A DNA stretch of 64,000 bases from NCBI GenBank assembly GCA_958450365.1, contig CAUEEP010000865.1:310001-374000 (forward strand). Direction: 5' to 3'. Numbering within the stretch: position 1 is the stretch's first letter; each line of letters opens with the position of its first letter. A model generated the notes under the pieces. It saw only the letters and a list, made by a program, of their open reading frames with translations. It ran no database searches and was not told where the DNA came from. This document shows, piece after piece, positions 4,221-26,159 of this stretch. The position numbers and the translations under genes were made by a program. The stretch is from Mesorhabditis belari. Its lineage: Eukaryota; Nematoda; Chromadorea; Rhabditida; Rhabditidae.

Positions 4221-4388
4221 TACCTATCTCTGTCATAGTTTGCCACCGTAATCTTTCTGATGCTAGGTCAGCTTAGCTCTTGGCACAAGTAGTTTTTGGC
4301 CAAGATAAGAGTCAGAGTCGGGGTTCAGCTTTGAAACTTTCTACCTCAGTAAGGCATAAAACCCATCCCCCTTGGCAATGGAATACGT

Positions 4389-5727: not shown

Positions 5728-5823
5728 CACCCATATCTCCATGGAAACACTGGGGAAAAGAGGGAAAGAAAGAAAGGCAAAGAATTCCCTCTTTTCCCCC
5801 CTTTTTCCATGGAGATATGGGTG
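5728..5823. repeat. Short hairpin repeat
   Basis: CACCCATATCTCCATGGA at 5,728 and its complement ending at 5,823 flank purine-rich arms that also pair (GGGAAAAGAGGGAA with TTCCCTCTTTTCCC). Several overlapping short frames here are shadows of the palindrome. Confidence 0.7.
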
Positions 5824-6373
5824 TTCCACACGTTGATGATTGGGAAAAGAAGAAAAAAGAAGAGAAGAGATGGTTGAGAATAAGGATTAGCATAGAGGTT
5901 GGACTTTGAAATCAACTTACAACCAGCTGGTAATTGGAGAAAATTGATTTCATTATACAAAAGTTTCAAAGTCTCAACTTCTAGATGACTGCTAGATGAC
6001 TTCAAAGTCATCAATTACATGTTCAGCATCAATTACAAGTTTCTCAAGTCAATTAAACCAATTAAACCAATCTGACAAGGAAAGCCACCAAGTCAAACTG
6101 GTAAACGTGGGATAAATCATGGAAAATCACCTGAATTAAATTGAAGAATCACTTGAATTTCCATTGACATTGAAAATCACCTTGAATTTTGAGCTCCTTA
6201 TGAGGCTGTCACACGCTTCCTCAAAAACTGTTTTAATGGTCCAGTGGTTCGTCTGCTAGACTACTTTTACTGCTAGACTTTTTGCGGAGAGTGGACTCGA
6301 ACTTGAGACCGAAAAATGTAATAGGCTTGTTAGTCTAGCAAAAAATAGGCTTCGTAGTCTAGCAGCTTCTTAG

Positions 6374-9300
6374 ATCACTGAAGCAGTTGCTAGTAGTGAA
6401 GAAGAATGGATTAAGCGGATATACGAAGAAGTTTGCGCTTTCTCGCATCGACGCTCTGTTTTGGTGATTTGTGAGACGGTCGAGGGTGTGAACTTTGTCC
6501 AGAAGAGACTGACAGCGGAAGGATTGAATACTTTTGCATACAGGAGGGAACACGAGAAGTTCACCGTTGCAGATAAACCTCTATTGACTGGAAAAGTGAT
6601 TGTGGCTACAAATTTGGCTGGAAGGGGCACGGATATCAAGATTTCAGATGCTCTGAGAGATGTGGGTGGCTTGCACATCTGTCTAACATATCTACCATCA
6701 AATAAACGAGTTGAAGAACAAGCCTTTGGGAGGGCAGCCAGATCGGGTGACCCGAGAAGTGGGAGACTAGTGATCTTGAAAGATGACACCAATGTGCCCG
6801 CGACTCATCATCGAATGGTGGCAATCAAAGTGGAGAGGGACAGCGATGAGTTGAAACGGATCGTTGAAATCAAGGAGCACTACGAGAAGCGGATCCTTGC
6901 CCAGGAGTACTGCTTCGAGGAGTTCAACAAACTCTATCAGGCACAGGCTGGCAGGTTCCAAAAGGTTCCCGTCGATAAAGTGAACCTCTTGGAGAACCCA
7001 ATTGATCAATGGGCGTTGTGGTTGCACAAGTGGAAGCAGATCATTAACAACGATGGAAATGCGGAAGAATACAAGAAACAGTTAGCGCTTTTCGTGAAAC
7101 AAGCCAGGAAATTCCTGACGAAGAGAACATTCATCTTGATGCCGCACTTGGTCCGACTTGCAAGGAACCACATTGAGCAGAAGAGCTACGGCAATGCAAT
7201 CGGTGCTCTCAATCATGTGATTAACTTTGAGCCCCAATTCTCCGAGACAGCCCACTACTATAAAGCCTATGCAATTGGGAAGAGTTTCAATTGGGAATTC
7301 AATCGAAGCAAATCAAACAGAGTTGTTGAGGAATTGGAGATAGCCAAGAAAATGTTCGAAAAGCTTTCCGATTCCCAATTGCAATATTCAGCAATTGTGA
7401 CCAAGATGAAGGCGAACTTCGAGTCCGTCGGAATCATTCAGATCACTTCTTATGAAGAGCAAAAGCAGGGCATCGTTGACATCTATGGCCAGTTCATCTC
7501 AGCAATTGATGAGGCAATCGGATCAACTGCTAGTTCGGAGTCTTTCCACAAGGGAATCATAAACGAAGAGATGAGCTCAACGTTGTACGATTTGTTCTAT
7601 GGAAAGAAAGTTCTACTCCCAATGAAGACCTTAAGACCGGATGACCTAAAAGAGATTGAAAGAGTTGCTCGAGAATTCGGGATTCCCCTCGAAACGCTTA
7701 CAACATTTTTACAAAAGGGTTATCAAGGAGATGCAATTCAGATCGAGAAAGCTTTGCGTGAACACATTCCTCTGCCAAATCGAGACGATTTTTGGGATGA
7801 GCTGTTGAGTAACAGATGGTTGATAAAGCCGAAGACCTTTGTGGTGTTGGACAAGGAGAAATTCTTTCAAGAATACCCATTGCTCATTTCAGATAAAGAT
7901 TTTATTGGTAATTCACGGGAATTGAAGAAGTTCAAAGAAGAGATCAGTGGATCAGATCTCGTTTTGAAGACTCTAGAGCCATTGGATGAGATGCTCGAGA
8001 CCAGCAAGGTCTTCGAAAAAGAGGCCTTCATAAAATTGATTCGAGAGGTTCGCTATGAAACTTTCTTTCAAAAGGGATTGATTGTGGAGTTAGACGTGGC
8101 TGAAAGAGCAGAAAGTAGCAAAGACTTTACTTTCAAATCCTTCGATAAACTAAGAATTGAGGACTTCATTGGTGAACACATCAGAACAGAAATTGCTTTG
8201 GCTGTTCTTGAGGCACTTGTTGAATCGAAAGTTCTCGAGAAAAAGGGAACTCATTATCGCCTCCTAGTCGCTGATCTGAATGATTACAAGTTACCACTAA
8301 ATCTTCGTTTGTATTCTGACGCGGTTGATGCTTTGCTCGCAAAGAGTTTCGCATATCGACTGGCTTTCAACAGAATGACAGGGCAAAAAGATGGCTCAAT
8401 AAACATTCCAGTGCTCCATAAGCCGCATCAACAATTGCTCTGGGATCTGGTTGATGCTGAGGCTATTACTCCTGTAACTGTTGGATCAAAGGATTCCGTT
8501 TCAAGGATTCTCGAGGCCCAATACCCAGAATATTTCTCACAAGAAGCTCTGATTGAGATCATGAGACAAGAAGTGCCAGGCCTTACAGTTAATAAAGCCT
8601 GGAATCTACTCAAGGAGAAAGGCCATTTGACCAAGACAGTTTTCGACTCCACTTACACGATCACCGAGAAACAGGTGAAGATCTACGGAAGAGAGTATGA
8701 GACCACGAACAATCGACTTCAGAATTGTCTCAGAGGGCAAATGTTTCTCCGAAAGGAAACAACAAAACAAGAAATTGTTGGAATCATCGATCATCTAAAG
8801 GGGTTGATCATCACTTTGGATTGCCCAGAACTCTATTTACAAAAACTCTACGACGCTCTCGGATCGAAGGCGCCGGCAGCCATGGAAGAGATAAATATCT
8901 TCATGCTGAACGGATTGGAGGACATCATTCGCTTCCAAGAGCAGCCGTACACGTGGAAGATAATCTTCTATACGTTCTTGGTCGTCCCATTGATGGGACT
9001 CATTCAGATCGGAATAGCCATTCAATTGTTCACGGTCGGTCTGATGAGCCATGTTGGTCTCGGATTCATCAGCGAGGGCGTCAGTGATCTAATCTTTGCC
9101 GTTTCCGGGATGAGATCCGGCTACTTCAGTTGGTCGGCTTATTGGCAGCACAAGAAGGAGAGCATCATGTTTACAGTGATCACTTGCGGAATTAGAGCCT
9201 TTTTGGCTCGTGGAGCTCAAGTGTCGCGGTACGGGGCAAAGTTCGCACAACAAGGATTGAAATCGGCTTGGAAAGAAGTGGCAAATATGGCTGGAAAGGA

Positions 9301-9418
9301 ACTGATCGCTGAGGTCGGCTGGTCAACTGTGAGAAACACAGTGTGAAAAGATTTTGCTTCGCACGCGATCAAGGGAGTGCAAGTTGACCAGGAGCATTTC
9401 ACACTTTTACAACAAGGT
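6374..9418 (+). pseudogene. Truncated, inverted partial copy of the giant SecA-like gene
   Basis: From about 6,398 to 9,379 the sequence matches, in the opposite orientation, the 16.44-13.46 kb part of the large SecA-like ORF. It covers the second helicase-type lobe (ATNLAGRGTDI and QAFGRAARSGDP motifs), the TPR-like region and the hydrophobic segment; by eye the protein is roughly 90-95% identical. The 5' two thirds of the gene, including Walker A and DEVD, are absent, and there is no in-frame ATG at the left edge (a stop lies at 6,371). Relative to the full copy a TTA leucine codon is TGA at 9,344-9,346. After that stop the original frame continues to 9,379 and jumps to the QVDQEHF segment, so about 1 kb is deleted. 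The copy should be non-functional as a SecA, although 961 codons remain open. Confidence 0.85.
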
Positions 9419-11298
9419 ATTCAATACATTTTGCAAAATATATTTTTTAAAAAGCGCTAGAAAAAGCTAAAAAAAGTTTTTTAAGTTTTAAGTTCAATAG
9501 GTTTTGATAAACCCAGCATCATCTCTTGATCTATAAGTCAAAAACCTTGCGCCAAATTTCGTCGACCAGTTAGTGCCTTCTATTATGACATTTTTTATAA
9601 TAGAGATCATTTACCAATAAAAATCTCAAAAATGAAGCCTCCATCTTAATTGATAAAGGTTTTTATAATTAGATTTATGGAAATGAGAGGAGATGTCCTT
9701 GTTTGCAAACGGTTCTTTGCTCTTGCTCTCTTTCATCCATTTCTTCCTTGATATGCCTTAAAATCAGAACTTTATCTTGTTGCGACAATTATGGCACACC
9801 CTGTATATCCCTAGTTCAGGCAGGAAAATCATGTACACGTATCCGAAAGAGGGAAGAGCCAACAAGGAGGTGGCATGTCTCTGGTAGCACTCGAACTAAT
9901 ACGTGCGAGTCCAATTTTATAACGTTATCCAAAGCTTTTGAGATTTTTCGTGACACTTAGCACTTGATCTTTTGTATAATAGGTAAATTTTCAGAAAAGT
10001 TCTGATTCTCAAGCAATTTTTATAATCAAAACAAACAATCAAATGAAAACAAACAGAAAAAACAAAACAAACAAACAAAACAAAAAAAACTATGCTTATT
10101 CTAATGTTTTAACAGTTTATTGTGTAAAATTGAAATTAAAAGCAAATCAATACACTTCATACTGTACTTTATTTACTTTCAAGGCTGCTGCTTTCTTCCT
10201 CTCTCCATTCCGGAAAGAGAAAGAAATGCGGATGCTTGATTTGGATTAGCTGATAGTTGAACTAAATAAATGGTTTTAAAAAGTGCATCTCTTTTATGGT
10301 GATCGCGAAAATACGTGAAACTTCGTAAACAATCATTTTTTTTTTGACACGCCACGGACGTTTGATTTCTTCAAATTAACTTTAAATTCGGAAAATTCGC
10401 ACATTTTTACCCTAGGACATTTAGTTTTCTAAAACGAAATTAACTTTGAACAACTTTCCGATACGATTCTTTTAACGGTGTCACGGTTTTGCTCTGAGAT
10501 TTTGTCAATTTTAAACTCTGATTTCCCACCGTGAAATCGCTTGAAAAACTTTTGTTTTTTGAAGCTATTTCTTTGGTTTATGGCTTATTTTATAGAAAAA
10601 TCTTAACTCTCCAAAATACCATTCAAACTCTTTTCCAAAAAAAAACTTTTGTGAAAAATTTTCTGACTTCAACTATCAAAAGAGTCGACGACCAAACAGA
10701 AGCCTGCGAAATAAATGCTTGCCATGCAGAAAAGTAGCTCTTTTCTGTGAAATCTTATTTGATGCTTTGATTTTGAATATCTCTGATTCTCTTGTCCTTC
10801 CCCTAGAAATCGTTTGTGTGAGAAAAAGAGACGGAGCTCACTTTGTATTGCTTTTCTTTGGCTTTGAAACGCTGAACCAATGATTGATTCTATTTATTGT
10901 ATTTTCTCGCTAGATTAGTGATTGTGCTAGATTCGGAATAAAATATCTAAATAATCATTGCCCCATCGGCACCAAGCATCAGTTTTCTCGATAATATTAT
11001 TAAGTTTAGACAAAGACAACGGCTTTCTGCAGGATTCGATTTTCTTCGACATTTTTCCGATTGTTTACGCGGCCTTTTTATTGTACCTGTTTACAGATGT
11101 TTTTTCGTTGAATTACTTTCATGAAACTATTTTTTCTGAAACTAACAAAATAAAAATTAAAAAATCAAACTAAAAACAAAAGTTGAATCGATACATAAGT
11201 ACCACAAAAGAAAGAGTCAAATTTAGAGAGTTGCAAGTTGCGAAGCAGTGAGCAAACGTGATCTGAAAGTTGCAAGTTATTTGGTGACTTTAGGAAAA
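9419..11298. other. Spacer between the inverted SecA copies, no gene
   Basis: AT-rich sequence with A- and T-runs (for example an AAACAAAC-rich tract at about 10,040-10,090). No exon with convincing codon structure was seen. It holds the dispersed repeat at 9,754-9,806. Confidence 0.55.
9754..9806. repeat. Dispersed 53-bp repeat (second copy at 53,331-53,383)
   Basis: The two copies match over TGCCTTAAAA, CTTTATCTTGT, GCGACAATTATGGC and CTGTAT with only a few differences. The outer edge (CCCTGTA then TA) resembles a transposon terminus. No partner end was found nearby. Confidence 0.7.
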
Positions 11299-11309
11299 TT
11301 TATTTATTT
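11299..11309 (-). terminator. Polyadenylation signal candidate for the SecA-like gene
   Basis: AATAAA occurs on the minus strand (TTTATT on the given strand) about 115 nt beyond the SecA-like stop codon, a reasonable distance for a nematode 3' UTR. Confidence 0.4.
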
Positions 11310-11421
11310 ACTTTTATAAAGAAAGCTTGAAACAAAAAGTACGTTGATCTCACAGGTTCACTGACGTCGAGGCTGAAATTTCTCTTGAGTTGTCGAAGCT
11401 TGCCAAAGATGTTACCAAAAT

Positions 11422-14400
11422 TCAAACAAATGAGTTCCTTCTCGGCGGCCCATCTTTCCTCGTCGGCTTCACATTTCCGGTCTTTGTCCAATCTGCATCC
11501 AAGACTCGAGCTTGCGTTGGCACATTCTCATAGCTTTTCATGCCGAATCTCTGTCTTCCCTGGAGATTCAAGTTATTATCGAATATGATATGACCGGTGA
11601 TGTTTCTGAATTGTGCCGGTCCATTCGTCACGCTGCATGTGTACCCGATGTGTGGGTGTGGTGGTCCATTGTCTGGCACAGTCGGATTGTCCACGTTGTA
11701 CTCAAGCTTCAGTCGCATCTCACAGGTCTCTGTCCCCGATCTGTTAAGTTTTGGTCGAATCGTGATCCCACGTTGACCCTCGGCTTCATAATATTCAAAT
11801 TGAACCGGCACCCACACGCTTTCCTTCCCTTCTTGCTTTTTTTCGACATACTTTGTCGCCTTGAATTTTGTCTCATCGAGTTGGATCGGTGTCTTGAGAC
11901 CGGGATCGTTCATCGCTCTAATGACGGAGTCTCTCACATTGTTCACATTTATCTCTCCATTTCCGGAAGTTCCTCTCAACTCATTATCATCCGTGTAACA
12001 ATTCACCAAACGTTCCAGACGTTTCACGGCCTCTACATGTCCGTCTTTCACTTGTTTTTTCTTCTCTTGCACTTGTTCTTTAGTGGTTCTCATCGTTGTA
12101 CCCTTATTACGTAAATCGACGTCTACTTTCTCATTGAACTCCCATTTTCTTGTTCCCTCGATCTCGTTTGTCCCTCCACTATTTTTTCGGTTTCGTAGCC
12201 CGCCGTAGAGCCCTTTTCGGATCCCGAGCGCGTGTTGTCCGCTTCGGATCGTTTCCCCGATTTCGAGATCCGTCTCAACACGACGAGCAATTTGTTCTCT
12301 CAGCGTCCGATTGTCCATGTCCAGCTCACTGATCTGATTCTTCAAAGCATTCAGAAGACAATCGTAATCACCACCGGACGATTCATTCATTTGAGTGCCC
12401 TGTTGTAAAGGTGTGAAATGCTCCTGGTCAACTTGCAGCTCTACTTTGGTAACGTTTCCTGGATCGCCACATTGTAGCGTGAAACTCGTTCCATCATTCC
12501 CTTTCACTTCTATCAGATATCCCTTGTTTGACCCATTGGCTTTCAAATGTGCATCGAGAACTCCAGCATATCCCTGCAGACTTTGCATATCCATGTGACC
12601 GCCCTCTCGTAGAATCTCTGCATAAAGTTTTGGATCTCGAACTCGTTTCTTCAAATCATTTAATGTGTTGTGATATTTTTGATCGATCGATTTCCGGATC
12701 TCTTCGTTGGCTCCAGACTCAATAGCTTCTTTCCTCTTCGCCTCATATTCTTTCTTCGTCTTTGCAAACTCTTGAACGTGCTCGTAATTCTTGTACGACC
12801 GGTACTGCCTCTTGATTTGCCTTCCCAAATAATTGACAAGATAGTTGGCCCCTGTTTGCAAGAGGGGCTCCACAAATTTCTTGGCAATTATCGTCCCAAT
12901 CTGTTCGTTCATCTGTTCGTTCATGAAATCCAACGACGATTTGCTGAAATTCTCTCTTTCTTCACGATCATCGTTGACCGGTTGACTGTTCAGCATTTCC
13001 GAGCATCCGAGAAGACTATTGTTGACCCGATCGAGCAACTGATCCACCAGTGTTCCCAGTTCAAAGAGATTCTTGGCCACTACTGATACGTGATCTGCCA
13101 ACTTTAAAACCAAAGTGGCAATGTAGGAGAGACTATACGGAGTAGAACTTTGCCTGTTCATCGATCCGAGACCATCGCCGATTTGCCTCGATACATGGAC
13201 TCCGTATCTGAGAAATGCTTCCGAAGTGGTTTCATTGAATGCTCTCTCTAATAGTGCACTCCTCAAATGGCGCTCGAACAGTTCCTTTCCCTTTTTCGCC
13301 CCCAGATGAGCATACAATTTGTCGATTGTTTGTGACATTTTGTAATTCTTTGCCGATTCCCTGATTTGTTGGTAGAATGACGCGGCCAGACGGACACAAA
13401 GCCCACTCAAGTGATTGTCGACCAGAGCCGCCACTGCTTGGCTCGTCATCCCCAATGCCACTCCCTTGATCGCGTGCGAAGCAAAATCTTTTAACACTGT
13501 GTTTCTCACAGTTGACCAGCCGACCTCAGCGATCAGTTCCTTTCCAGCCATATTTGCCACTTCTTTCCCAGCCGATTTCAATCCTTGTTGTGCGAACTTT
13601 GCCCCGTACCGCGACACTTGAGCTCCACGAGCTAAAAAGGCTCCAATTCCGCAAGTGACCACTGTAAACATGATGCTCTCCTTCTTGTGCTGCCAATAAG
13701 CCGACCAACTGAAGTAGCCGGATCTCATCGCGGAAACGGCAAAGATTAGATCACCGACGCCCTCGCTGATGAACCCGAGACCAACGTGGCTCATCAGACC
13801 GACCGTGAACAATTGAATGGCTATTCCGATGGCTATCTGAATGAGTCCCATCACGACGACCAATGTCGTGAAGAAGATCATCTTGCACGTGTACGGCTGC
13901 TCTTTGAAGCGAATGATGTCCTCCAATCCGTTCAACATGAAGATATTTATCTCTTCCATGACTGCCGGCGCCCTCGATTCGAGAGCGTCGTAGAGTTTTT
14001 GTAAGTAGGGTTCTGGGCAATCCAAAGCGATGATCAACCCCATTAGATGATCGATGATTCCAACAATTTCTTGTTTTGTTGTTTCCTTTCGGAGAAGCAT
14101 TTGTCCTCTGAGACAATTCTGAAGTCGATTGTTCGTGGTCTCATACTCCCTTCCGTAGATGTTCACCTGTTTCTCGGTGATCGTGTAAGTGGAACTGAAA
14201 ACTGCCTTGGTCAAATGGCCCTTCTCCTTGAGTAGATTCCAGGCTCTATCAACTGTAAGACCTGGCACTTCTTGTCTCATGATCTCAATCAGAGCTTCTT
14301 GTGAGAAATATTCTGGGTATTGGGTCTCGAGAATCCTTGAAACGGAATCCCTTGATCCAACAGTTACAGGAGTAATAGCCTCAGCACTAACCAAATCCCA

Positions 14401-17400
14401 GAGCAATTGTTGATGTGGCTTATGAAGCACTGGAATGTTTATTGAGCCATCTTTTTGCCCTGTCATTCTGTTGAAAGCCAGTCGATATGCGAAACTCTTT
14501 GCGAGCAAAGCATCAACCGCGTCAGAATACAAACGAAGATTTAGTGGTAACTTGTAATCATTCAGATCAGCGACTAGGAGGCGATAATGAGTTCCCTTTT
14601 TCTCAAGAACTTTCGATTCAACAAGTGCCTCAAGAACAGCCAAAGCAATTTCTGTTCTGATGTGTTCACCAATGAAGTCCTCAATTCTTAGTTTATCGAA
14701 GGATTTGAAAGTAAAGTCTTTGCTACTTTCTGCTCTTTCAGCCACGTCTAACTCCACAATCAATCCCTTTTGAAAGAAAGTTTCATAGCGAACCTTTTGA
14801 ATCAATTTTATGAAAGACTCTTTTTCGAAGACTTTGCTCGCCTCGAGCATCTCATTCAATGGCTCTAGAGTCTTCAAAACGAGACCACTGATCTCTTCTT
14901 TGAACTTCTTCAATTCCCGTGAATTACCAATAAAATCTTCATCTGAAATGAGCAATGGGTATTCTCGGAAGAATCTCTCCTTGTCCACCACCACAAAGGT
15001 TTTCGGCTTTATCAACCATCTGTTACTCAACAGCTCATCCCAAAAATCGTCTCGATTTGGCAGAGGAATGCATTCACGCAAAGTTTTCTCGATCTGAATT
15101 GCATCTCCTTGATAACCCTTTTGTAAAAATGTCGCAAGCATTTCGAGGGGAATCCCGAATTCTCGAGCAACTCTTTCAATCTCTTTTAGGTCATCCGGTC
15201 TTAAGGTCTTCATTGGGAGTAGAACTTTCTTTCCATAGAACAAATCGTACAACGTTGAGCTCATCTCTTCGTTTATCATTCCCTCATAGAAAGACTCCGA
15301 ACTTACAGCCGAACCGATTGCCTCCTCAATCGCCGAGATGAACTGGCCATAGATGCCAACGATGTCTTGCTTTTGCTCTTCATAAGAAGTGATCTGGATG
15401 ATTCCGACAGACTCGAAGTTCTCCTTCATCTTGGTCACAATTGCTGAATATTGCAATTGGGAATCGGAAAGCTTTTCGAACATTTTCTTGGCTATCTCCA
15501 ATTCCTCAACAACTCTGTTTGATTTGCTTCGATCGAATTCCCAATTGATACTCTTCCCAATTGCATAGGCTTTATAGTAGTGGGCTGCCTCGGAGAATTG
15601 GGGCTCAAAGTTAATCACACGATTCAGAGCATCGATTGCATCACCGTAGCTCTTCTGCTCAATGTGGTTCCTTGCAAGTCGGACCAAGTGCGGCATCAAG
15701 ATGAATGTTCTCTTCGTCGGGAATTTGTTGGCTTCTTTCAAAAAAAGCGCTAATTGTCTCTTGTATTCTTCTGCATTTCCATCGTTGTTAATGATCTGCT
15801 TCCACTTGTCCAACCACAACGCCCATTGATCAATGAGGTTCTCTAAAAGGTTCACTTTACCGAAGGGATCCCTTTGGAGCTTGCCAGCCTGTGCCTGATA
15901 GAGTTTGTTGAACTCCTCGAAGCAGTACTCCTCGGCAAGAATCCGCTTCTCGTAGTGCTCCTTGATTTCAGTGATCCGTTTCAACTCATCGCTGTCCCTC
16001 TCCATTTTGATTTCGACCATTTGATGATGAGTCGAGGGCACTTTGGTGTCATCTTTCAAGATTACTAGTCTCCCACTTCCCGGGTCACCCGATCTGGCTG
16101 CCCTCCCAAAGGCTTGCTCTTCAACTCGTTTATTTGATGGTAGATATGTTAGACAGATGTGCAAACCACCCGCATCTCTCAGAGCATCTGAAATCTTGAT
16201 ATCCGTACCCCTTCCAGCCAAATTTGTAGCCACAATAACTTCTCCAGTCAATAGAGGCTTATCTGCAACGGTGAACTTCTCGTGTTCCCTCCTGTATGCA
16301 AAAATATTCAATCCTTCCGCTGTCAGTCTCTTCTGGACAAAGTTCACACCCTCGACCGTCTCACAAATCACCAAAACAGAGCGTCGATGCGAGAAAGCGC
16401 AAACTTCTTCGTATATCCGCTTAATCCATTCTTCTTCATTCTCACATATTATCGGCGTCTCCTCATAGAATTTCTTACCACAAGCCGTTGGAATGGTCAC
16501 ATAGTCAACGTCGTGGATCTGTTGCAAGAGATCCATTTCATGCACAGAGCCAAGAGTACCGGTCAGTCCAAAGAGGTTCTTATACCTCTTGAAATAACTG
16601 ACATTTGAGATGAAAATCGCTTTCAGACTCATCAGCGACATTCGACAACCGTGTTTCAGCTGCAAGAATTGGTGCAAACACTCCTCCCATTGAGAACTCG
16701 CCTGATCGGTGCCCGTGTCTCGATCGAGTATTGTGATGTTTGCATGCAAATCGTGCTTCACTCCGGTTCTGTCAACATCTACAACATAATCATTTCCAGC
16801 CATCATATAGAGAGCCGTTTTTGCGTTCTCAATCCATTTAGACAAGTGAAACTCAACGAAATCGATTAAGAAATTGGGTACAACGGCCATACATTGCTTT
16901 CTGATTGTCTCGTTTAACAAAAAAACCAAACGAATCCTGGTGGCCTGATCGATTGACTTGATCTTGTTGATCTCTTGGTCAATTCTCTCTTCAATCAAAA
17001 GACGACCCTTTTCATTGATGATCTTCTTTTGTAGCATCTCATTCCATAGTTGATAACAGTTAACGCTCATTTCTTGTGTTGACAACCGTTTTAGATCATC
17101 TCTCGTAACCCGTTTATACATATTATCAATGACATTCTGTCGTAAATGCTCTGTATCCATTGCCGAGTCGTAATCCTTCTGATTCTTCACTGGTCGGTTC
17201 ACTAGCTGCCAAATGTAAAGCAAAACCGATTCGAGTTTGTCGAAGCCGGCGATTTGATGGCTCAAGTACAGCACATTGTTGCCCTTATCCAACAGCATAC
17301 TGTCAACTTCATCCACGATGATGCTCTCGAATTGACGAGCTCCCAGAATGTTCTTCCCATAGAAGCGATCAAGCAGGAGGTCTCTTTGGAAGTTCGTGAT

Positions 17401-20400
17401 CTCTCCATAAACGATAGTCCTCGTCTGATAGACATCCGTTCGTTCTTGCAATGATTCGCTACAATTGTGGCCGACAGTCAGATTGAACATCTCGTACAGC
17501 TCACGATTCATTTCAGCATCTCTTCTCGCGAGAACCGATGAACTCGTGATCACGTCAACCTTTTCACCACGAAGTGCCCTAATGATGGCCAATGAGGCGA
17601 CGATCAGAGACTTCCCTTCACCCGTTGACACTTGTTCGAGTACCCGAGATTTCCCCTCTGATAAGCAGAACAAGAGGATTGCGATCTTTTGCGTATCTCG
17701 TAGCAGAAAGCCCTCTTTGAGGTGAATCGCTTGAATCACAACAGCTAACAGTTCGGCTATCGACGAATTCGTTAAATCCGAGTAGAGACTCGAGAAGAAA
17801 CCACGACTCTGATGCTTCCTTGTCCACTCTTGGATCTCCTCTTTCGAATTGGGCATCTCTTTCTTGAAAGAATCGACTTTCCGAGTGATTTTTTTCAGCG
17901 TTGGTAAGAGTGTGGCTATTGATTTCGATGTTCTGTTGTTGTTCTCAATGATCTCAATCAATCTGTCCAAGTTTCGAAGACTCTGACTATCAATATCAAG
18001 CACTTTTGACCATCGATCAACCGATTGAGCACTTAAAATCTTCAGAAATTTCTCGGTTAGAAACACTTTCTCACTGTAAAGTGCCTCGAAAATTTGTACA
18101 GCAATTTCAGAGGTGATTTGGTCTTTCTTCTCTGCAAATACCTTTAATAATTTATTAATCGAGTCTTCTTTGTAAAGAATTTCAATCGATGTCAAGTAAT
18201 GGAGAGTTCTTTGGAAGAGGTCGCCGCTTTGATTCCATTTTGTAATCTCCTGTAGCTTCATCGCCCAGTGATCAATTTTCAGGACAAGGGGCCATTGCTT
18301 AAGCTCTAAACCAATTAGATTGATTGATGGGGTTTTTATTTGTAAGAGATGAACCAAGTTCTCAAAATCCTCAAAAGAAAAAGCTTTTGGTGCCAGAGAA
18401 GACAATTGCTCTAATAAATGAAAGATGATTCGTTTGTCGCTCAAGCTCCGGAGCTTCGAAACAATTCTCGAATGCATCGAACGCTCAAAATAGTTCTCAA
18501 TCTTTATAACTCCACATTCAACTACCCATAATTTTTGGCTTGATGCAACAATTATCCATAGAAAGAGATCGACAAAGTTTCTTGAGGTATGACTCATTTC
18601 CAGAATGGTGTTAATGAATAGACTCATCTCTTCTTCTGATAGTAGACAACCCTCACATTGGAAGCGATCGGCAAGAGCGTTGAGAATTCGATTTGTTCCA
18701 ATATATGGCTCGGTGATGAAGTTGAGTCGTTTCCAAATCGAGGTATTATTATTCAAACAGCTCTTGATCCGTGCCAAAGCTTTTTCTGGATTCTCGAGCT
18801 TCTCAAAAGGCTTTGGATTCTCGGTTTCAAGTTGGAGAAAATGCTTTCTCTTGAAATATTGATTCACTTCGACCGTTGTTGTGAAACGGAGAAGAGAACC
18901 GAGAATCGAGTCGTAGATGATTGACTTTTGAAGTCTTTCTTGCTCCAGTTTTAGCAAGGAAGCATTAACTTTCAGCTCATATAATTCTTCGTCTCTCCCG
19001 ATAGTCACCTTTAGAACCTTCTTGGCCTTTGGATTGAAAATATCAGTCAAAACCATCTTATCATTTTCATCTTTGACAAAAAACTGAACTTGAACCTCTT
19101 GTGACTGTGCTACTAGCTCAATATGACATGTCGAGGTTAAAGAAGGCTTCTCTTGTAAATGTTTTCCAAGTTTTTCCATCAATTCTTTATTGACCAGAGC
19201 TGTTTCATCGAGTTTCTCGAATGACTCTTCGAATACAATCAAATCCCCCTTCTTCTTAGAATACCAAAAATTGTAGCCATCTTTCAGGTCGGAGATGGTT
19301 GTTTCTGGCTTCTCCTCATTGCCTCCCCAGAACTTTTTTATCAAGTTTTGGTACCATATCGTGTCAGCTTTCTTGATCTCCAAGATCTCGAAACAGAACT
19401 CTCGAAGAACTCTTCGGGCCCTAGACTCTGAATTTTTCTGCAATTCCTGGAAAGCCTTCGGTAGATCCAATCCCTTATTAAAGAAGGAGAAAAACCATTG
19501 CATATTACTGGCTTCTTTGTCCGCATTGAAGACGGCGATGAAATGCTGGAAATCCTCAGACCACGACTCTTTTGGGCACTTTTGAAGAAAATAATCCTCA
19601 TCTTTGATTGAACATTGTGTCTCATGGCAAACTTTTTGCATAACCTCTTGACTCAACTCCAACTTTTCGGTCATCTTGTACAGCACAATTAGAAAAAAGT
19701 TTCTATTCTCTAAAGATCGGTATGAGCTCCCGATCTCGTGAAGAACAATATCTTGGCGCTTCTTTGTCGGCTCATGAAACTCGATTTGTCTGGTGATACT
19801 CATCGAGGCTTTCACTTGGTTCTTGTGCTGCTCTAGACTCGATTCAATCAGTTCAGAGTTTTCTTTGTGACTCTTCTGGAGGGCATTCATAAGGTTTTGA
19901 GTCGTGGCAAATACATCACTCTCGTGTCTTTGAAGCTCATTGATGTGCACATTTGTCTTCCTCACAGCCATCACCTGATTCCCGACGTTGGCTCCTCTCT
20001 CTTGACCCCGACTCGTCTCCCGTTCAATCGGATTCGGCAACTGAGTCGCCTGTATCTCCACCCAATATGCTAAATTTTGGCTTCGACGATACGGACACAC
20101 GTGTCTCCAATTTTTTCTCTCGGAAAATGGGGCTATCTCCAGTTTCATATCATGTTTCTCTCCTACATAGGCTGGCTCTGCACCTGTCGAGTCCTCCGTC
20201 CATCCAACATCCCAGCCATTCTTCTGTGGCTGCCCATTTTTGCCTCGTTTCCCGTTTTCACCGTTCTTCCCAGGCAACCCACTATCCTCTTGTCCGTTGA
20301 TCACAATCGAACCCGGGAATCCACCCTGACCACCCATTCCACCCAATCCCCCGTCTTTTTCTGGGGTTGCCTCAGTGCCCCTCACCAACAGGTAACTTTG

Positions 20401-21873
20401 ACAATTGATCAATTTTGTGTGACCACCACATTCCCAAGCAAATGTAACCACCATTCCATCCTTCAACCTGGCTTTCACGTAGATGCACACACCACCGTAG
20501 ATGAACACATCTTCTAAAGGGAAAAACCCGAAAAATCTTTTGACCTTCTTGACTCGGCGGTTCAATATGTCCTGCCAAATCTGTTCATGGGATTCGCCCG
20601 TCCCACCGCTCCACCACACCTCGAGCAACTCAGATAGATTAGCCGCTATATAGCAAAGAATCTTGCTGACACGTGGGCCACGGTTTGTTAAGAGGAACGC
20701 TGCCGCACCGGGCATTTCCTCTTTGAGATCCGAAATTGTCATGGCTTCTCCCTTCACTCCATCAATACCGGTTCCCCCGTCTTGGCCCCGGCTCCCGTCA
20801 CCACCATTTGCCACGATCTCCAAATTCTCTCTGCAATTGATCCGATCAACTTCAATATAGACGTTCCCAGCACTTTCCCCCGGTTCTCCATCATTTCCGT
20901 TGTTTCCGTTTCCAAGCGAGTCCCTCCCAGCATCGGATTTGTACTTGTTGGTCTTTGACTGACCAGTGGTGTTTATCTGAACTTTTCCAGGAACCAAGAG
21001 TCTTGGTGTCTTAATCAGAATATTAACTCCTGGCAACACGATGTCTCGGTCCAACTTGATAGAGAGTTGACTGATCAAATGGATCTCTTGCCACTTTGAT
21101 TGTGCCAAATCGAGCTCACTAATCGAAAAAGCACTCCCAGTCACTTCCAATATGCTCACTCCATCCTTTACATTAACTGATTTTGAAAGCGGCTTGAAAA
21201 ACAATCCAACAATCTCAAAGAACTTCCCAGGGAAATAGAATTCTTTCTCGTTGATGAGCGCTTGGGCCATGGCCTTCAATGAAGCGGTCCCATTCTCCAG
21301 CACGCAGACAAGCAACAACCCGAATCTTCGGTTAACCTCAAGATCTGACCCAACGACTTCGCGGAATGGCTGCAAGAACTCCTCGTCTGCTTCCTCCCTG
21401 ATGACCCTAAGAAATTCATCGAAAAACTTCAACTCTCTCGCGATCCCAATATTCTGATGCTTTAAATGGGCGTAACAACGTTTCTGGAAAGACTCGAGAG
21501 CGCTGCTGAGCGCTGTGCTATCGAAAAAGCTCTTATGATGACTGATCACCTTTTGTATAGAATGATTGTTGAGAATTTTAACTTCCCAGAAACCGCCTCT
21601 ATTCACTTCTGCCAATTTTTCGACGACCATTTTTAAGTCACGCTTTTGGGAGCTCTTCTCGAATCCCTCCACAGCCTCAACCACCCAACGATCGAGAATC
21701 TTTGAGGTCCAAATTTCGGTGATGATTTTATTATCCAATTCAGATAACGCTCCACCGTCGCTCTTGTTCTTCAAGCTTCTCTTGATTGTCATCAGCTGAA
21801 GTCTCTCTTCACATCTTACTGTTGAGGCAAACTCGTCGATTTCTTGCTTTACAAAGTCATCCACATCACCCAC
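11422..21873 (-). CDS. Giant SecA-like protein (about 3,483 aa, single exon)
   Basis: An uninterrupted 10.4-kb frame ends at TGA 11,422-11,424. Landmarks by approximate residue: two collagen/glycine-rich blocks (315-378 and 503-552); SecA NBD1 with Walker A STGEGKS (1,414-1,420), an SSSVLARRDAE motif equivalent to SecA YLAQRDAE, and VDEVDS (1,519-1,524); LTGTLGS (about 1,766); NBD2 with ATNLAGRGTDI (1,879-1,890) and QAFGRAARSGDP (about 1,920); a TPR-like hairpin (about 2,075-2,105); a hydrophobic stretch (2,660-2,712); and an OTU-like Cys motif (about 3,167). SecA is the bacterial and plastid preprotein-translocation ATPase and is normally about 800-900 aa, so this protein is far longer. The frame opens without an ATG: the listed start is GTG and the first in-frame ATG is residue 28. 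Upstream the frame stays open to about 21,908, with an acceptor-like TTTAG/ACAG, so a short 5' exon is likely. Neighbouring host genes have many introns. No signal peptide was identified. The cellular role is unknown; translocase activity is not implied. Confidence 0.88.
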   Translation of the reverse strand: MGDVDDFVKQEIDEFASTVRCEERLQLMTIKRSLKNKSDGGALSELDNKIITEIWTSKILDRWVVEAVEGFEKSSQKRDLKMVVEKLAEVNRGGFWEVKILNNHSIQKVISHHKSFFDSTALSSALESFQKRCYAHLKHQNIGIARELKFFDEFLRVIREEADEEFLQPFREVVGSDLEVNRRFGLLLVCVLENGTASLKAMAQALINEKEFYFPGKFFEIVGLFFKPLSKSVNVKDGVSILEVTGSAFSISELDLAQSKWQEIHLISQLSIKLDRDIVLPGVNILIKTPRLLVPGKVQINTTGQSKTNKYKSDAGRDSLGNGNNGNDGEPGESAGNVYIEVDRINCRENLEIVANGGDGSRGQDGGTGIDGVKGEAMTISDLKEEMPGAAAFLLTNRGPRVSKILCYIAANLSELLEVWWSGGTGESHEQIWQDILNRRVKKVKRFFGFFPLEDVFIYGGVCIYVKARLKDGMVVTFAWECGGHTKLINCQSYLLVRGTEATPEKDGGLGGMGGQGGFPGSIVINGQEDSGLPGKNGENGKRGKNGQPQKNGWDVGWTEDSTGAEPAYVGEKHDMKLEIAPFSERKNWRHVCPYRRSQNLAYWVEIQATQLPNPIERETSRGQERGANVGNQVMAVRKTNVHINELQRHESDVFATTQNLMNALQKSHKENSELIESSLEQHKNQVKASMSITRQIEFHEPTKKRQDIVLHEIGSSYRSLENRNFFLIVLYKMTEKLELSQEVMQKVCHETQCSIKDEDYFLQKCPKESWSEDFQHFIAVFNADKEASNMQWFFSFFNKGLDLPKAFQELQKNSESRARRVLREFCFEILEIKKADTIWYQNLIKKFWGGNEEKPETTISDLKDGYNFWYSKKKGDLIVFEESFEKLDETALVNKELMEKLGKHLQEKPSLTSTCHIELVAQSQEVQVQFFVKDENDKMVLTDIFNPKAKKVLKVTIGRDEELYELKVNASLLKLEQERLQKSIIYDSILGSLLRFTTTVEVNQYFKRKHFLQLETENPKPFEKLENPEKALARIKSCLNNNTSIWKRLNFITEPYIGTNRILNALADRFQCEGCLLSEEEMSLFINTILEMSHTSRNFVDLFLWIIVASSQKLWVVECGVIKIENYFERSMHSRIVSKLRSLSDKRIIFHLLEQLSSLAPKAFSFEDFENLVHLLQIKTPSINLIGLELKQWPLVLKIDHWAMKLQEITKWNQSGDLFQRTLHYLTSIEILYKEDSINKLLKVFAEKKDQITSEIAVQIFEALYSEKVFLTEKFLKILSAQSVDRWSKVLDIDSQSLRNLDRLIEIIENNNRTSKSIATLLPTLKKITRKVDSFKKEMPNSKEEIQEWTRKHQSRGFFSSLYSDLTNSSIAELLAVVIQAIHLKEGFLLRDTQKIAILLFCLSEGKSRVLEQVSTGEGKSLIVASLAIIRALRGEKVDVITSSSVLARRDAEMNRELYEMFNLTVGHNCSESLQERTDVYQTRTIVYGEITNFQRDLLLDRFYGKNILGARQFESIIVDEVDSMLLDKGNNVLYLSHQIAGFDKLESVLLYIWQLVNRPVKNQKDYDSAMDTEHLRQNVIDNMYKRVTRDDLKRLSTQEMSVNCYQLWNEMLQKKIINEKGRLLIEERIDQEINKIKSIDQATRIRLVFLLNETIRKQCMAVVPNFLIDFVEFHLSKWIENAKTALYMMAGNDYVVDVDRTGVKHDLHANITILDRDTGTDQASSQWEECLHQFLQLKHGCRMSLMSLKAIFISNVSYFKRYKNLFGLTGTLGSVHEMDLLQQIHDVDYVTIPTACGKKFYEETPIICENEEEWIKRIYEEVCAFSHRRSVLVICETVEGVNFVQKRLTAEGLNIFAYRREHEKFTVADKPLLTGEVIVATNLAGRGTDIKISDALRDAGGLHICLTYLPSNKRVEEQAFGRAARSGDPGSGRLVILKDDTKVPSTHHQMVEIKMERDSDELKRITEIKEHYEKRILAEEYCFEEFNKLYQAQAGKLQRDPFGKVNLLENLIDQWALWLDKWKQIINNDGNAEEYKRQLALFLKEANKFPTKRTFILMPHLVRLARNHIEQKSYGDAIDALNRVINFEPQFSEAAHYYKAYAIGKSINWEFDRSKSNRVVEELEIAKKMFEKLSDSQLQYSAIVTKMKENFESVGIIQITSYEEQKQDIVGIYGQFISAIEEAIGSAVSSESFYEGMINEEMSSTLYDLFYGKKVLLPMKTLRPDDLKEIERVAREFGIPLEMLATFLQKGYQGDAIQIEKTLRECIPLPNRDDFWDELLSNRWLIKPKTFVVVDKERFFREYPLLISDEDFIGNSRELKKFKEEISGLVLKTLEPLNEMLEASKVFEKESFIKLIQKVRYETFFQKGLIVELDVAERAESSKDFTFKSFDKLRIEDFIGEHIRTEIALAVLEALVESKVLEKKGTHYRLLVADLNDYKLPLNLRLYSDAVDALLAKSFAYRLAFNRMTGQKDGSINIPVLHKPHQQLLWDLVSAEAITPVTVGSRDSVSRILETQYPEYFSQEALIEIMRQEVPGLTVDRAWNLLKEKGHLTKAVFSSTYTITEKQVNIYGREYETTNNRLQNCLRGQMLLRKETTKQEIVGIIDHLMGLIIALDCPEPYLQKLYDALESRAPAVMEEINIFMLNGLEDIIRFKEQPYTCKMIFFTTLVVVMGLIQIAIGIAIQLFTVGLMSHVGLGFISEGVGDLIFAVSAMRSGYFSWSAYWQHKKESIMFTVVTCGIGAFLARGAQVSRYGAKFAQQGLKSAGKEVANMAGKELIAEVGWSTVRNTVLKDFASHAIKGVALGMTSQAVAALVDNHLSGLCVRLAASFYQQIRESAKNYKMSQTIDKLYAHLGAKKGKELFERHLRSALLERAFNETTSEAFLRYGVHVSRQIGDGLGSMNRQSSTPYSLSYIATLVLKLADHVSVVAKNLFELGTLVDQLLDRVNNSLLGCSEMLNSQPVNDDREERENFSKSSLDFMNEQMNEQIGTIIAKKFVEPLLQTGANYLVNYLGRQIKRQYRSYKNYEHVQEFAKTKKEYEAKRKEAIESGANEEIRKSIDQKYHNTLNDLKKRVRDPKLYAEILREGGHMDMQSLQGYAGVLDAHLKANGSNKGYLIEVKGNDGTSFTLQCGDPGNVTKVELQVDQEHFTPLQQGTQMNESSGGDYDCLLNALKNQISELDMDNRTLREQIARRVETDLEIGETIRSGQHALGIRKGLYGGLRNRKNSGGTNEIEGTRKWEFNEKVDVDLRNKGTTMRTTKEQVQEKKKQVKDGHVEAVKRLERLVNCYTDDNELRGTSGNGEINVNNVRDSVIRAMNDPGLKTPIQLDETKFKATKYVEKKQEGKESVWVPVQFEYYEAEGQRGITIRPKLNRSGTETCEMRLKLEYNVDNPTVPDNGPPHPHIGYTCSVTNGPAQFRNITGHIIFDNNLNLQGRQRFGMKSYENVPTQARVLDADWTKTGNVKPTRKDGPPRRNSFV

Positions 21874-21909
21874 GTCGAAAGATCCATTTGGATTTAGCGG
21901 CTCTGTCTA

Positions 21910-22377
21910 AAGTTTTTGGGTTTTACAGTTTTGTTGTTTCTTTTTCAATATCCCGTTATTCCTTCACATAAACCTCGATCTTAATTGTGCCTTCACGACC
22001 CAGTTTGCACGTGTTGTATTAGGCATGAAAAAAAGGCATGTTACCATGCAAGGCCTTAATTGTACTATTACGCTGGCCGATAAGTTCGTAGAATTATCAA
22101 CTTTTAAAGTTTAATTTCTCAAAAACCCCACTATCAATTTTTCTAAAAATTTCTCAGCAAATAAAATCTATCATTGAAAAAGTTTTTGCCAAAATATGAG
22201 AGCAATCTAGAAGCAATTTCGAAGATTTCATTAGTTGATTAGTTGATTAGACGGCTTTTGAGAGAACTTTCTTCAATCAAACTTTTCATAGTCCAATTTT
22301 CAGATGAAAAGATGAACCCAAAAAAAAGAAAACCAAGTAAACAAGACTGGAAACTTTTCTAGTTTAACCGGAATTGA
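21910..22377. promoter_or_regulatory. 5' flank of the SecA-like gene, possible upstream exon
   Basis: On the minus strand a short open stretch at about 21,965-22,020 reads as a beta-strand-like peptide (CKLGREGTIKIEVYVKE), followed about 60 nt later by an acceptor-like TTTAG before the large frame. I could not join it in frame with a canonical donor. No other feature is visible. Confidence 0.2.
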
Positions 22378-22631
22378 TACAGTCATGGACAAAAGTCTTT
22401 ACCCCTACCGAGGTCAGCTTTTAAAATGAAAAATTTTTCAACTTTTTAACAAGTTTTAAAAATTGTTTTCAAAGTATTTTGTAGCATTTTTACTCTAGTT
22501 TTTATATCCCATAACCAAAAGAAACAACAATTTATTTTAGGCAACAAAGAACGACGTTAACAAAAAAAACCCTCAAAACAGGTGGACAAAAGTCTTTACC
22601 CCTCGAACAAAAAGTGAGAAAAAACCGAGTA

Positions 22632-24833
22632 CAGTCGAACCTCTCTATAACGAACCTCGATATAACGTAAACCTCTCTATAACGTAAGGCGTGACCGGTC
22701 CCGGCCAAATGTAATACAAAATGTCTATAAAAAAACCTCGATATAACGTAACTCTGTATAACGTAAACCTCTATACAACAAAAAATTTTGCCTGAAAATA
22801 TGCAATTTTTTGTTCCATATAACGGATTTTATGCTAAAACGTGGATATTTCTTCCAACTACCATGCTCTTTGGATGGACTATTCTAATCTGTGGCCTTTT
22901 TGCCACAATTTGAAAGAAGAAAAAGAATCACTTACATAGATTCTTAATAAGTTTTTTGCGTTCATATATCGTTCACTTATTCTTTTTACGTGCTTATTTT
23001 CTGTATTAAATGATATTTATCATTTTTCAGGCGATGGAGCGAAAGAAGGCGACCCGGAAAAGGATCGATCTAGCTGAAAAAAAAGCGAATTCTTGATGCT
23101 TCAACTTCGAAAGGAGTAACGGATTTAGCAAGGGAATTCAAGCGGCCAATTTCGACCATTTCTTCGATTTTGGGCCAAAAGCAAACGATTTCTAATGCGA
23201 TCAATGACGGTTCTCAGGGCAAGCGAGCACGAGTGAAGAATAGCAAACACGAGGACCTGGAAGGTGCGGTTATTTCTTGGTTGAAAGAGATTCGAAGCAA
23301 CAATGAATGTGTGGACGGAAATTTGCTTCAAACAAAAGCTCTGGAACTTGCAAAGTTGATGGGTATTACCGATTTCCGAGCTAGCAATGGATGGCTAGAA
23401 AAGCTGAAGCATAGGCATGGCATTGTTTTTCGTTCCCTACAAGGAGAAATCGACCTGAACAATGTTGAGCAGTGGAAAGATGAAGTATTGAAGGGACTCT
23501 TGAAAGAATTTGAGCCAAAGAATGTTTTTAACTTGGATGAAACAGCTCTTTTTTACAAGTTCACGCCGAATAAAACGTTGTCTTTCAAAGGCGATAGATG
23601 CACAAGTGGAAAGAAGAGCAAGGATAGAGTCACTGTTCTCGTCGGATCAAATACGGATGGAAGCGAAAGATGCCCTTTATTCGTGATTGGTAAATCGAAG
23701 CATCCGCGTTGCTTTAAGGATGTCAAAAAAACTTCCTGTTTTGTACGAAGCAAATTCAAGAGCGTGGATGACCAGCGAATTATTTGAGAGCTATCTCAAG
23801 AAATGGAATTCAAATTTGATCAAATTTAATCGGGAAATTTTGTTGTTTATTGATAACTGTCCAGCACATCCGAAGCTCAATTTATCAAACATTCAGATTA
23901 AATTCTTTTTGCCGAATGCAACTGCGGCAATCCAACCAATGGATATGGGAATAATTAAAAATCTGAAGGTCAGATACCGAACAGAATTGTTGAAACAAAG
24001 AATTGCAGCTGTCGATGCAAAGGCCAAATTCGAATTTAATCTTTTGGATGCACTATAGTTACTCGAAGAATCCTGGAATGACGTTAAAGTGGAGACGCTT
24101 TCAAATTGTTTTCGTAAGGCCGGATTCAAGAGATGTATGCAAGATGAGCCGCCATTTATCAAAAATAATAACGACGACGATAACTCGCTACAATCATTGC
24201 AGGCTATCTGGAATCAACTTATTGATAGTGAAGACGTTGATCGATCAATCAATCCTTTGGAATTTGCTTGCGCCGACAAAAATGTTGTGACTACAGGGTT
24301 AAGATCGCTAGAGGAAATTGCACTAGCTGCTAAAGGTACAGATTATATCGTTTAAAGTAATGCTAATTTAAGGAAAAGATCAATTATGTTTCCTTAGGTT
24401 CGCAACTACAGTCGATTTCTTCTGATAGCGAGGATGATGAGCCAATCGTTGAAGACGTGGAAGAGCCGATAGTGACACGATCCGATATCTACATCTTCAA
24501 AAGCTCAAGATATTTGTGAGGAAAAACCCTAATTCCGAAATTGTTATGGCTTTAGCAACTTTTGATAATTTTTTCTTTGATCAGGCTTTTTTTTCTCCTA
24601 AACAATCCCGTTTGACTAACTTTTTTGTTAAACTTTGATGCTTTTTGATAATTTGTTTACCTTTTTTGTTGAGTTTTTGCAATAAATATGTTCCAATACC
24701 TTTACATAACGTAATGGTTGCAATAAACCCTGCGTTTTTGATTCTATATAACAAAACCTCGATATAACGTAAACCTCTATATAACGTAAACTATAGCCGG
24801 TCCCGTGAGTTACGTTGTAGAGAGGTTCGGCTG
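22632..24833 (+). mobile_element. Tigger/pogo-type element nested in the Tc1 element
   Basis: Inverted ends CAGTCGAACCTCTCTATAACG and its complement (GAGAGGTTCGGCTG) are flanked by TA at 22,630-22,631 and 24,834-24,835. Subterminal copies of CCTCGATATAACGTAAACCT lie inside both ends. The element is 2.2 kb and carries a degraded pogo-family transposase gene. The same terminal consensus recurs at 32,200-33,940. Confidence 0.9.
23034..24519 (+). pseudogene. Tigger/pogo transposase, disrupted
   Basis: The gene opens at ATG 23,034 after a TTTTCAG acceptor and shows a CENP-B/psq-type helix-turn-helix region (ATRKRIDLAEK, then TDLAREFKRP), a second DNA-binding HTH (TKALELAKLMGI, WLEKLKHRHGI) and a DDE/D domain with NLDETALFYK, FIDNCPAH and QPMDMGIIKNL. 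The last two acidic residues are about 30 apart, as in pogo DD29-30D transposases. Breaks: a +1 shift in the A-run at about 23,077, a +1 shift in the A-run at about 23,727, and a TAG at 24,056-24,058. A last exon after an intron starting at about 24,335 gives an acidic tail (SDSEDDEPIVED) ending at 24,519. As written it cannot make a full transposase. Confidence 0.85.
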
Positions 24834-24837: not shown

Positions 24838-26011
24838 TTAATATTTGGTAGGGCCTCCTTTTGATGAAATTATTGCTTGAATCCTTCTCGGCATCGAGAC
24901 GACCAAATCCTGTAAAATTTGAGGACCGATCTTTGTCCAGACGTGTCGAATGAAGTACCATAGCTCAATCTTAGTATTGAAGCGCTTTCCCTTCAATTTC
25001 AGCTTCAAAAACGCCCACAAATGTTCGATAACGTTCAAATCCGGACTGTAGGGAGGAGCAGATACGAGCTGAACTCCATTCGATCGGAACCATTCGGGTA
25101 GACGAGCTCTACCACCGTTGGCAAGGCGAACAACTCGTCCCATTAGCAGTTGCGACTTGTGGCATGGAGCGTTGTCCTGGTACAGCAACCATCCTTGTCC
25201 AATTTTTGTGGTCGCAAATGGAAGAAGATCGTTCTCCAAAATCGCCTTGTATCGTTGAGCGTCCAAAGTTGAATTGAGAAGAACGAGCGGACCTGGTGAA
25301 CTTCTAGTCATCGCTCCTGAAAAAAAAAGTCAATAGGCATAAAGATAAAAGTTTCTTACCCCACAACATGATTGATCCGCCACCAAATTTGACTGTCGCA
25401 CGAAGGTATTTGGTGCTATATCGTTGTCCGACAGGTCTCCGGATCAAATTATTGCCGTCGGGATTGAAAAAATTGATCTTCGATTCATCGGTGAAGATGA
25501 CATTGGCCCAGTCGTTGCTTGTCCAACTTTCATACTTCTCGGCAAAGTCGAGTCGAATCTTCCGGTGTTTGGCGACCATCAGGGGCTTTTTGGCAGGTCT
25601 TCTAGTCATCAATCCTGCATGAATCAAACGTCTGCTTACTGTCTTTCGATTGATGCCCTTGTTAAATTGATGCTTGATTAATCTGACTCTATCGGAAGCA
25701 TTAAGATTTGGATCCTTTTTGTGGGCCAAAATTAGAACCTTGTCTTTTCTTGGTGTTGTGACGGGTGAACGACCTTTTTTGAATGCTCGGTGAAGAATTC
25801 CAATCGTTTTCTCTTTCATGCAAAGCTTTTTCACCGTTTCGGGGCTGCATTTGAATACGCTCGCAACATCTTTTACTTTGTCGCCTCGTTTCCTTGTTTC
25901 CACAATCTTTTCTTTGTCGGGAGTGGATAGGCTATCAGATAGGCTCCAGGCATCACTAGAATTAAAAAATAATAAATCATTGTTACGTGAAAAATAACGA
26001 AACAACAGCAA
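24838..26011 (-). CDS. Tc1-family transposase (two visible exons)
   Basis: The exon ending at 25,362 reads an HTH region (KVKDVASVFKCSPETVKKLC), a second HTH (GINRKTVSRRLIHAGL) and the first catalytic Asp (VIFTDESKINFF), ending at a GTAAGA donor; a 44-nt intron (25,318-25,361) leads to the C-terminal exon with the second Asp (LYQDNAPCHKS) and the Glu (SPDLNVIEHLW). The frame is intact across the splice. The 5' end is uncertain: an acceptor-like TTCTAG at about 25,960 suggests another small upstream exon. Unlike classic Tc1 (DD34E), 49 residues separate the second Asp and the Glu because of an extra segment (RLANGGRARLPEWF). The gene lies inside the 22,380-27,412 element, just beyond the nested Tigger element, which inserted near its stop codon. 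Confidence 0.85.
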
Positions 26012-26159
26012 GAAAATAAAAAGTTGAAAAGTGGTAAAGACTTTTGTCCACCTGTTTTAAGGGTTTTTTTTTGTTAACGTCGTTCTTTGTTGCCTAAAAT
26101 AAATCGTTGTTTCTTTTGGTTATGAGATATAAAAACTAGAGTAAAAATGCTACGAAATA

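Follow-up and report, generated by a model that had tools for sequence, protein, structure and literature searches.

In this study, we report the characterisation of a giant SecA-like gene in a 64,000-nucleotide stretch of DNA from the nematode Mesorhabditis belari (contig CAUEEP010000865.1, positions 310,001 to 374,000; hereafter the window). The gene lies at positions 11422-21906 on the minus strand, where 3,494 codons stay open up to a stop codon, and is almost certainly a member of a family of giant eukaryotic-like SecA proteins: the product is giant, has a central SecA domain and is separate from canonical SecA in phylogenetic trees. On balance, we favour the reading that it is an intact, apparently host-integrated member of a family circulating between invertebrates and intracellular bacteria, and an ATP-driven polypeptide-threading machine originating from the conflict between the two.

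The large uninterrupted SecA-like frame described in the initial annotation proved to be real, with the length corrected from 3,483 to 3,494 codons stop to stop; the ORF of 3,483 aa at 11422-21873 starts at a GTG, and the stop-to-stop frame extends to 21906. Residues of the protein are numbered from the codon at 21906, and all features of the gene given below are on the minus strand. The SecA-fold motor region (15709-17913, residues 1332-2066) comprises two NTPase domains, a clamp-like insert and a 53-residue scaffold-type helix. The six SecA motifs quoted earlier were all found in order within this one frame: Walker A, TGEGKS (17608-17625, residue 1428); LARRDAE (residue 1459); Walker B, VDEVDS (17299-17316, residue 1531); Motif III, LTGT (16555-16566, residue 1781); Motif V, ATNLAGRGTDI (16198-16230, residue 1893); and Motif VI, GRAARSGDP (16081-16107, residue 1934). 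Alignment of the protein to 15 relatives showed that K1432, D1532, E1533, T1784, R1899, D1902, R1935 and R1938 are invariant in 16/16 aligned sequences. The large flanks noted earlier were also present, although the figures of about 1,400 and 1,500 residues are replaced by 1,331 on the N-terminal side of the SecA-fold region and 1,428 on its C-terminal side.

The similarity to SecA was borne out by hidden Markov model (HMM) searches. Pfam matches to SecA_DEAD (1.7e-34, residues 1321-1775 of the 3,483-aa ORF) and P-loop_SecA (2.6e-12) were both over the gathering scores. At E ≤ 0.001, the core hit 24 distinct PDB sequences, all named SecA (best E 2.8e-42). The predicted core fold aligned with B. 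subtilis SecA over 610 residues at 3.2 Å, the model including the parts of the SecA tertiary fold outside the two RecA domains, and the predicted fold of the SecA-type core resembles that of SecA in its engaged state with SecY and substrate. The protein is probably a working ATPase motor, and we lean towards a polypeptide rather than a nucleic acid as its substrate.

A protein search, with a length rule that shows large proteins only, returned 36 giant relatives of 2,229-4,604 aa, 20 of which were from named animals: Plectus (3), Apolygus (1), Chironomus (1), Bradysia (1), Daphnia (4), Hydra (1) and bdelloid rotifers (9). The assumption that such a gene is absent from animals was wrong, as these relatives and PMC3639933 show. 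Seven of the 20 animal giants are on megabase contigs (Apolygus 66 Mb, Hydra 64 Mb, three Daphnia 8-13 Mb, Chironomus 4.7 Mb and Bradysia 3.8 Mb), and these are therefore not loose contaminant contigs; some of the rotifer giants may derive from contigs of symbionts that were assembled along with the host. A protein of Plectus sambesii aligned to residues 926-3460 with 34.5% identity over 2,685 columns, which shows that the SecA-like frame is not a chance one. Residues 176-314 of the rotifer giant P0027 are a Tc1-like transposase stretch, 31% identical to a Tc1-like element in the window.

A bacterial scan of one genome per prokaryote species, using two giant-type peptide patterns, gave 20 confirmed loci; canonical SecA was excluded by design because of these patterns, and the locus pairs L004/L012 and L009/L020 are from one metagenome-assembled genome each. 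By record title, eight loci are from Rickettsiales, four from Legionellales, one from Amoebophilaceae, and seven are less clearly labelled; Tatlockia, which belongs to the Legionellales, was counted there. Plasmid-borne giants were found in Ca. Megaera polyxenophila (5,225 aa), Ca. Bandiella woodruffii (2,966 aa) and Legionella geestiana (2,947 aa). On the Ca. Megaera plasmid (L024), the 15.7-kb SecA-like gene (347-16024) is followed by a second gene named as SecA-like (16046-17716), and the single L. geestiana giant (L025, 4499-13342) fills most of its 13.8-kb plasmid. On an IMG/VR phage-type contig (L021), a 3,555-aa giant (3399-14063) with a C-terminal WHH nuclease stands beside a large terminase, and the family seems to ride on phage in this case.

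The family was separate from canonical SecA in the tree of 53 cores, where six canonical SecA/SecA2 proteins, all from plasmid records and used as outgroup (chloroplast SecA was outside the tree), formed a separate clade (100/100). The window gene was sister to Plectus P0001 (support 100/94), within an 11-row clade (100/99) made up of seven animal and four taxon-unlabelled rows, into which none of the bacterial rows fell. Animal and bacterial giants interleaved, the animal label needing nine changes, and the Megaera plasmid gene nested among Hydra and rotifers (99/94, 100/98). A constraint that grouped all 16 animal rows apart from the 25 bacterial and canonical ones was rejected (approximately unbiased test, p 6.8e-59), in a test chosen after inspection of the tree and with taxon-unlabelled rows left free. 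Eight of the 69 cores, being fragments or near-duplicates, were omitted from both trees (L012, L014, L023, P0036, P0002, P0030, P0032 and L022); the second tree (53 cores, 570 columns) omitted 16 of the 69, the further ones being long branches or near-duplicates (P0035, L018, L026, L025, P0023, P0026, P0013 and P0027). For this second tree, the program warned of L019, whose long branch joins the outgroup. A family HMM scored complete giant cores at 352-864 bits and canonical SecA at 198-250 bits, a separation that is partly circular because the model was built from 26 family rows.

Members of this family have been in print since 2013, as a horizontal-transfer curiosity. Two unusually long secA genes were described in Wolbachia wBol1-b, of which wBol1_1092 is 11,829 nt and has full-length protein matches in ants and a near-full-length match in Daphnia pulex (PMC3639933). 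In the same study, the long secA genes form a eukaryotic clade apart from bacterial secA, show little sign of true introns and are under purifying selection, and transfer from eukaryotes into Wolbachia and Amoebophilus is proposed (PMC3639933). Other sources list SecA among the domains of phage WO that are closer to invertebrates, in the context of the phage WO eukaryotic association module (EAM) (PMC5062602), mention a eukaryotic-like secA of WOHa2 (PMC9203015), and include SecA-like domains among Amoebophilus effector domains, beside Otu, Ulp1-like and other peptidases (PMC3482391). A Legionella SecA DEAD-like protein appears in a list of proteins horizontally transferred from eukaryotes (PMC4256840), and a SecA DEAD-like transcript in a Daphnia similoides transcriptome comparison (PMC5037449), which suggests that some family member is transcribed in an animal. 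Neither a nematode member nor a mechanism for the giants was the subject of any title or abstract opening among the literature matches listed, from a search that had subscription papers and preprints outside its scope.

The proposal that an acquired gene had been remodelled in the nematode was upheld in part. A real SecA-type motor in a giant and host-resident-looking gene, a history of exchange and a link to intracellular symbionts all stood. A nematode-private remodelling of canonical SecA into a new giant ATPase did not, because the giant layout is common to the family (relatives of 2.2-4.6k aa, and up to 5,225 aa in bacteria) and because the 11-row clade of the window gene spans seven animal rows. 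An immune, symbiont-related or selfish role is still conjectural.

Conservation outside the motor was strongest in the animal clade, where the N-terminal Gly-rich region, the helical region and the hydrophobic module are all conserved. Identity to Plectus P0001 was 37% in residues 216-650, 52% in the motor, 40% in 2641-2860 and 36% in 3111-3260. The N-terminal conserved region (19957-21261, residues 216-650), with Gly-rich GxxG repeats, showed 23-37% identity in P0001 and P0003-P0011, and 14-28% in the other five of the 15 relatives. The helical region behind the motor (13987-15708, residues 2067-2640) may be TPR-like (tetratricopeptide repeat): weak TPR matches below the Pfam cut-offs follow the motor of L002 and of L011 and also occur in an ORF neighbouring L008, and TPR domains are precomputed for P0013 and P0025, while the Pfam scan gave no TPR match in the window protein itself. 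It is followed by the hydrophobic module (13327-13986, residues 2641-2860), with a strongly hydrophobic segment at residues 2682-2700 (bases 13807-13863). By a hydropathy script, such a post-motor segment was found in 18/18 hand-picked family members, the window protein included, and not in E. coli SecA. Residues 3111-3260 (12127-12576) form a possible permuted OTU/papain-like Cys-His module, assigned with low confidence, with H3163 and C3183 as its candidate residues; a sequence search of the PDB to E 10 gave nothing for it.

If these parts work together, the SecA clamp would open and close around an unfolded polypeptide through cycles of ATP and so thread it, with the helical region recruiting partners. 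The hydrophobic segment could anchor the giant protein in, or insert it into, a host or symbiont-vacuole membrane, and the C-terminal module may act on ubiquitin or on the threaded chain. The whole might serve as a weapon or counter-weapon against intracellular bacteria that was retained by the host; such a conflict role of the window gene is quite possible, though we stop short of calling it probable.

Several observations weigh against this reading. Animals have Sec61, not SecYEG. SecA_PP_bind (PF01043) and SecA_SW (PF07516) were not detected in the window protein by the Pfam scan, and SecA_SW was found in none of the family members scanned; PF01043 was over cut-off in five bacterial relatives. 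Domain scans of the window protein detected no effector domain and no toxin domain of a known kind, and there was no effector-type domain in P0001, P0003, L005, L007, L015 and L016 among the relatives scanned. The His-aromatic ... [DNS]-Cys pattern of the C-terminal module occurred in 10/54 proteins of at least 1,900 aa versus 2/1,080 shuffles, with seven of the ten carriers sitting in the alignment that suggested it and P0012, P0028 and L011 being independent. The positions of H3163 and C3183 are His and Cys in 8/15 aligned relatives each. The C-terminal fold model is weak (predicted local distance difference test, pLDDT, 58 overall) and gave no PDB match below E 0.001, and for these two reasons the OTU-like assignment is treated as a lead only. 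The frame has no ATG at its start, the first in-frame ATG being residue 39 (21792). Lastly, the G+C content of the gene is 0.44 (third positions 0.50) versus 0.38 for the window, and five coding stretches nearby, of which three are remnants of transposases, have 0.37-0.42 (third positions 0.37-0.45).

The gene could instead encode a host housekeeping or stress machine without any part in conflict, in which the SecA motor would underlie a cytosolic unfoldase/disaggregase or a remodelling ATPase. Conservation well past the motor in the animal clade and a window copy free of toxin domains would fit such a function. However, the family is patchily distributed (20 named animal proteins in nine genera, with absence from other animals not tested), has been exchanged with intracellular bacteria, and has a broken duplicate alongside the window gene; this is not the profile of a housekeeping gene, and we consider the explanation unlikely.

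A selfish element resembling polymorphic toxins, in which the motor would push the C-terminal payload of the same protein through a membrane and the animal copies would be former symbiont or phage toxins, is suggested by the phage-type L021 protein with its nuclease adjoining a large terminase, and by the plasmid location of other relatives. Effector-type domains are indeed present in bacterial members: USP in L008, OTU in L011 and a weak ART-like match in L013, with ankyrin repeats in L020. Rotifer P0015 has precomputed Ulp1, RickCE and PF13930 domains. The window protein, however, has no recognised toxin domain, and the recognised extra domains vary by relative and are lacking in several; no payload can therefore be assigned to it, and we regard this origin as distinctly improbable.

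Decay of the window gene into a pseudogene is brought to mind by the frame start and by a clearly truncated neighbour. This inverted, 5'-truncated copy (6397-9424, plus strand) lies 2 kb from the giant gene, with three long blocks 95-98% identical to it; it covers the late motor to the hydrophobic module, then skips about 1 kb, and retains a 990-codon remnant frame with an internal deletion and no first NTPase domain. The copy is probably itself a pseudogene. The ratio of nonsynonymous to synonymous differences (pN/pS) between the giant gene and the broken copy was 0.52 over 987 codons, as expected with one copy constrained and the other not. With 3,494 codons open and 8/8 checked motor residues kept as well, decay of the giant gene is very unlikely. 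Immediately ahead of the open frame stands a TAG codon that could belong to a splice acceptor (CTTTAG followed by ACAGAG), and of 15 upstream ATG-to-GT frames only that at 22936-22965 has a GTAAG/GTGAG/GTATG donor. This candidate 5' coding exon (minus strand, 10 codons that begin with an ATG and end at a GTAAGT donor in phase 0, with 21907-22935 as the intron) is speculative, and its use as the first exon of the gene is a guess. An AATAAA at 11303-11308 (minus strand, 114 bases past the stop, with a second one overlapping at 11299-11304) is a possible poly(A) signal, and a weak one as the region is AT-rich.

Misjoining of contaminant bacterial or symbiont DNA into the worm contig would account for relatives in Rickettsiales and Legionellales and for a G+C content above that of the window and the five coding stretches; we raised its probability slightly because of the latter, and it is still a shade less credible than decay. 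Against a misjoin, the sister of the gene is a Plectus gene and not any bacterium in the set, and the degenerate inverted copy is within the same window. Also against it, Tc1/Tc5-type transposases lie at 23-27 kb, and repeats in the 5' flank (22374-22603) recur at 26.0-27.4 kb. A lengthened canonical SecA of bacterial or organellar origin would share the fold and motifs but is scarcely credible, since the protein scored 122-186 bits with the eight NCBIfam SecA/SecA2 models against cut-offs of 725-1493 and lies outside the clade of the six canonical proteins.

Transposase remnants of Tc5/pogo, Tc1/Tc3 and mariner types were found in the window at 23074-23787 and 26226-26804 (plus strand) and at 24838-26056 and 46992-47501 (minus strand). 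Probable host exons lie at 41945-42340 (plus) and 49439-49804 (minus), with matches to Josephin (3.6e-8) and TBC (2.1e-5, just below the cut-off). Together with the Plectus sister gene, the Tc1/mariner-type transposases and these two exons give indirect support to the nematode label. The neighbours seen are these transposases and host exons, with no immunity gene among them, although no systematic search was made. An isolated fragment of eukaryotic 28S rRNA, probably a pseudogene, was located at 32410-32871 on the minus strand (Rfam RF02543, 269.6 bits, model positions 957-1444 of 3401). Tandem repeat arrays with units of 10-123 bases are at 1070-1500, 33556-33898, 57803-58112 and 62040-62321.

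The window gene adds a well-kept nematode copy to the family. Its relatives keep the SecA fold well past a bare ATPase, and some bacteria combine the fold with effector-type enzymes, which raises the testable question of whether SecA-style protein threading occurs in animals, and against whom. A broader and rather doubtful proposal is that animals have working SecA-type machines for threading polypeptides, self-contained giants fusing motor, membrane and effector modules that have repeatedly been exchanged with intracellular bacteria and with the phages and plasmids of these, and that are used on both sides of the conflict. If so, the nematode copy would be a host-owned translocase that moves proteins through, or out of, a membrane facing a symbiont or pathogen, and SecA-driven transport could no longer be said to be absent from animals.

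Among known systems, the closest relative is Plectus sambesii P0001, which is sister in the tree, 35% identical over 73% of the protein and has the same module order. In UniRef, it and P0002 are named Chloroplast protein-transporting ATPase. It differs in an N-terminal MSP domain (2e-20), its first 260 residues matching nothing in the window. This domain, like an HSP70 annotation in P0004, is an extra Plectus domain ahead of the family N-terminus, from either a real fusion or a gene-model error. The eukaryotic-like secA genes of Wolbachia wBol1-b and wHa come from hosts of a different phylum, and the link to wBol1_1092 is one of shared taxa (Daphnia, Amoebophilaceae) and shared description, not of sequence comparison. 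The permuted OTU deubiquitinase EschOTU has a reversed His-aromatic ... Cys order (PMC7396840), and the same order in the window module is a motif resemblance only. For Amoebophilus effectors and polymorphic toxins, the likeness lies in SecA-like domains being listed among the effector domains of an intracellular bacterium (PMC3482391); the window protein has no recognised payload. Canonical SecA/SecA2 shares the motor fold, the Walker and helicase motifs, the clamp-like insert and the scaffold-type helix with the window protein, but is 800-900 aa rather than 3,494 aa and about 20-30% identical in the aligned parts, and the window protein lacks a SecA_SW match and reads LHQFLQLKHG at the site of LHQAVEAKEG, LHQALEAKEG or LHQAIEAKED in the four canonical proteins aligned. 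The closest working analogy is SecA, and the closest ecological analogy is with the multi-domain effectors of intracellular bacteria.
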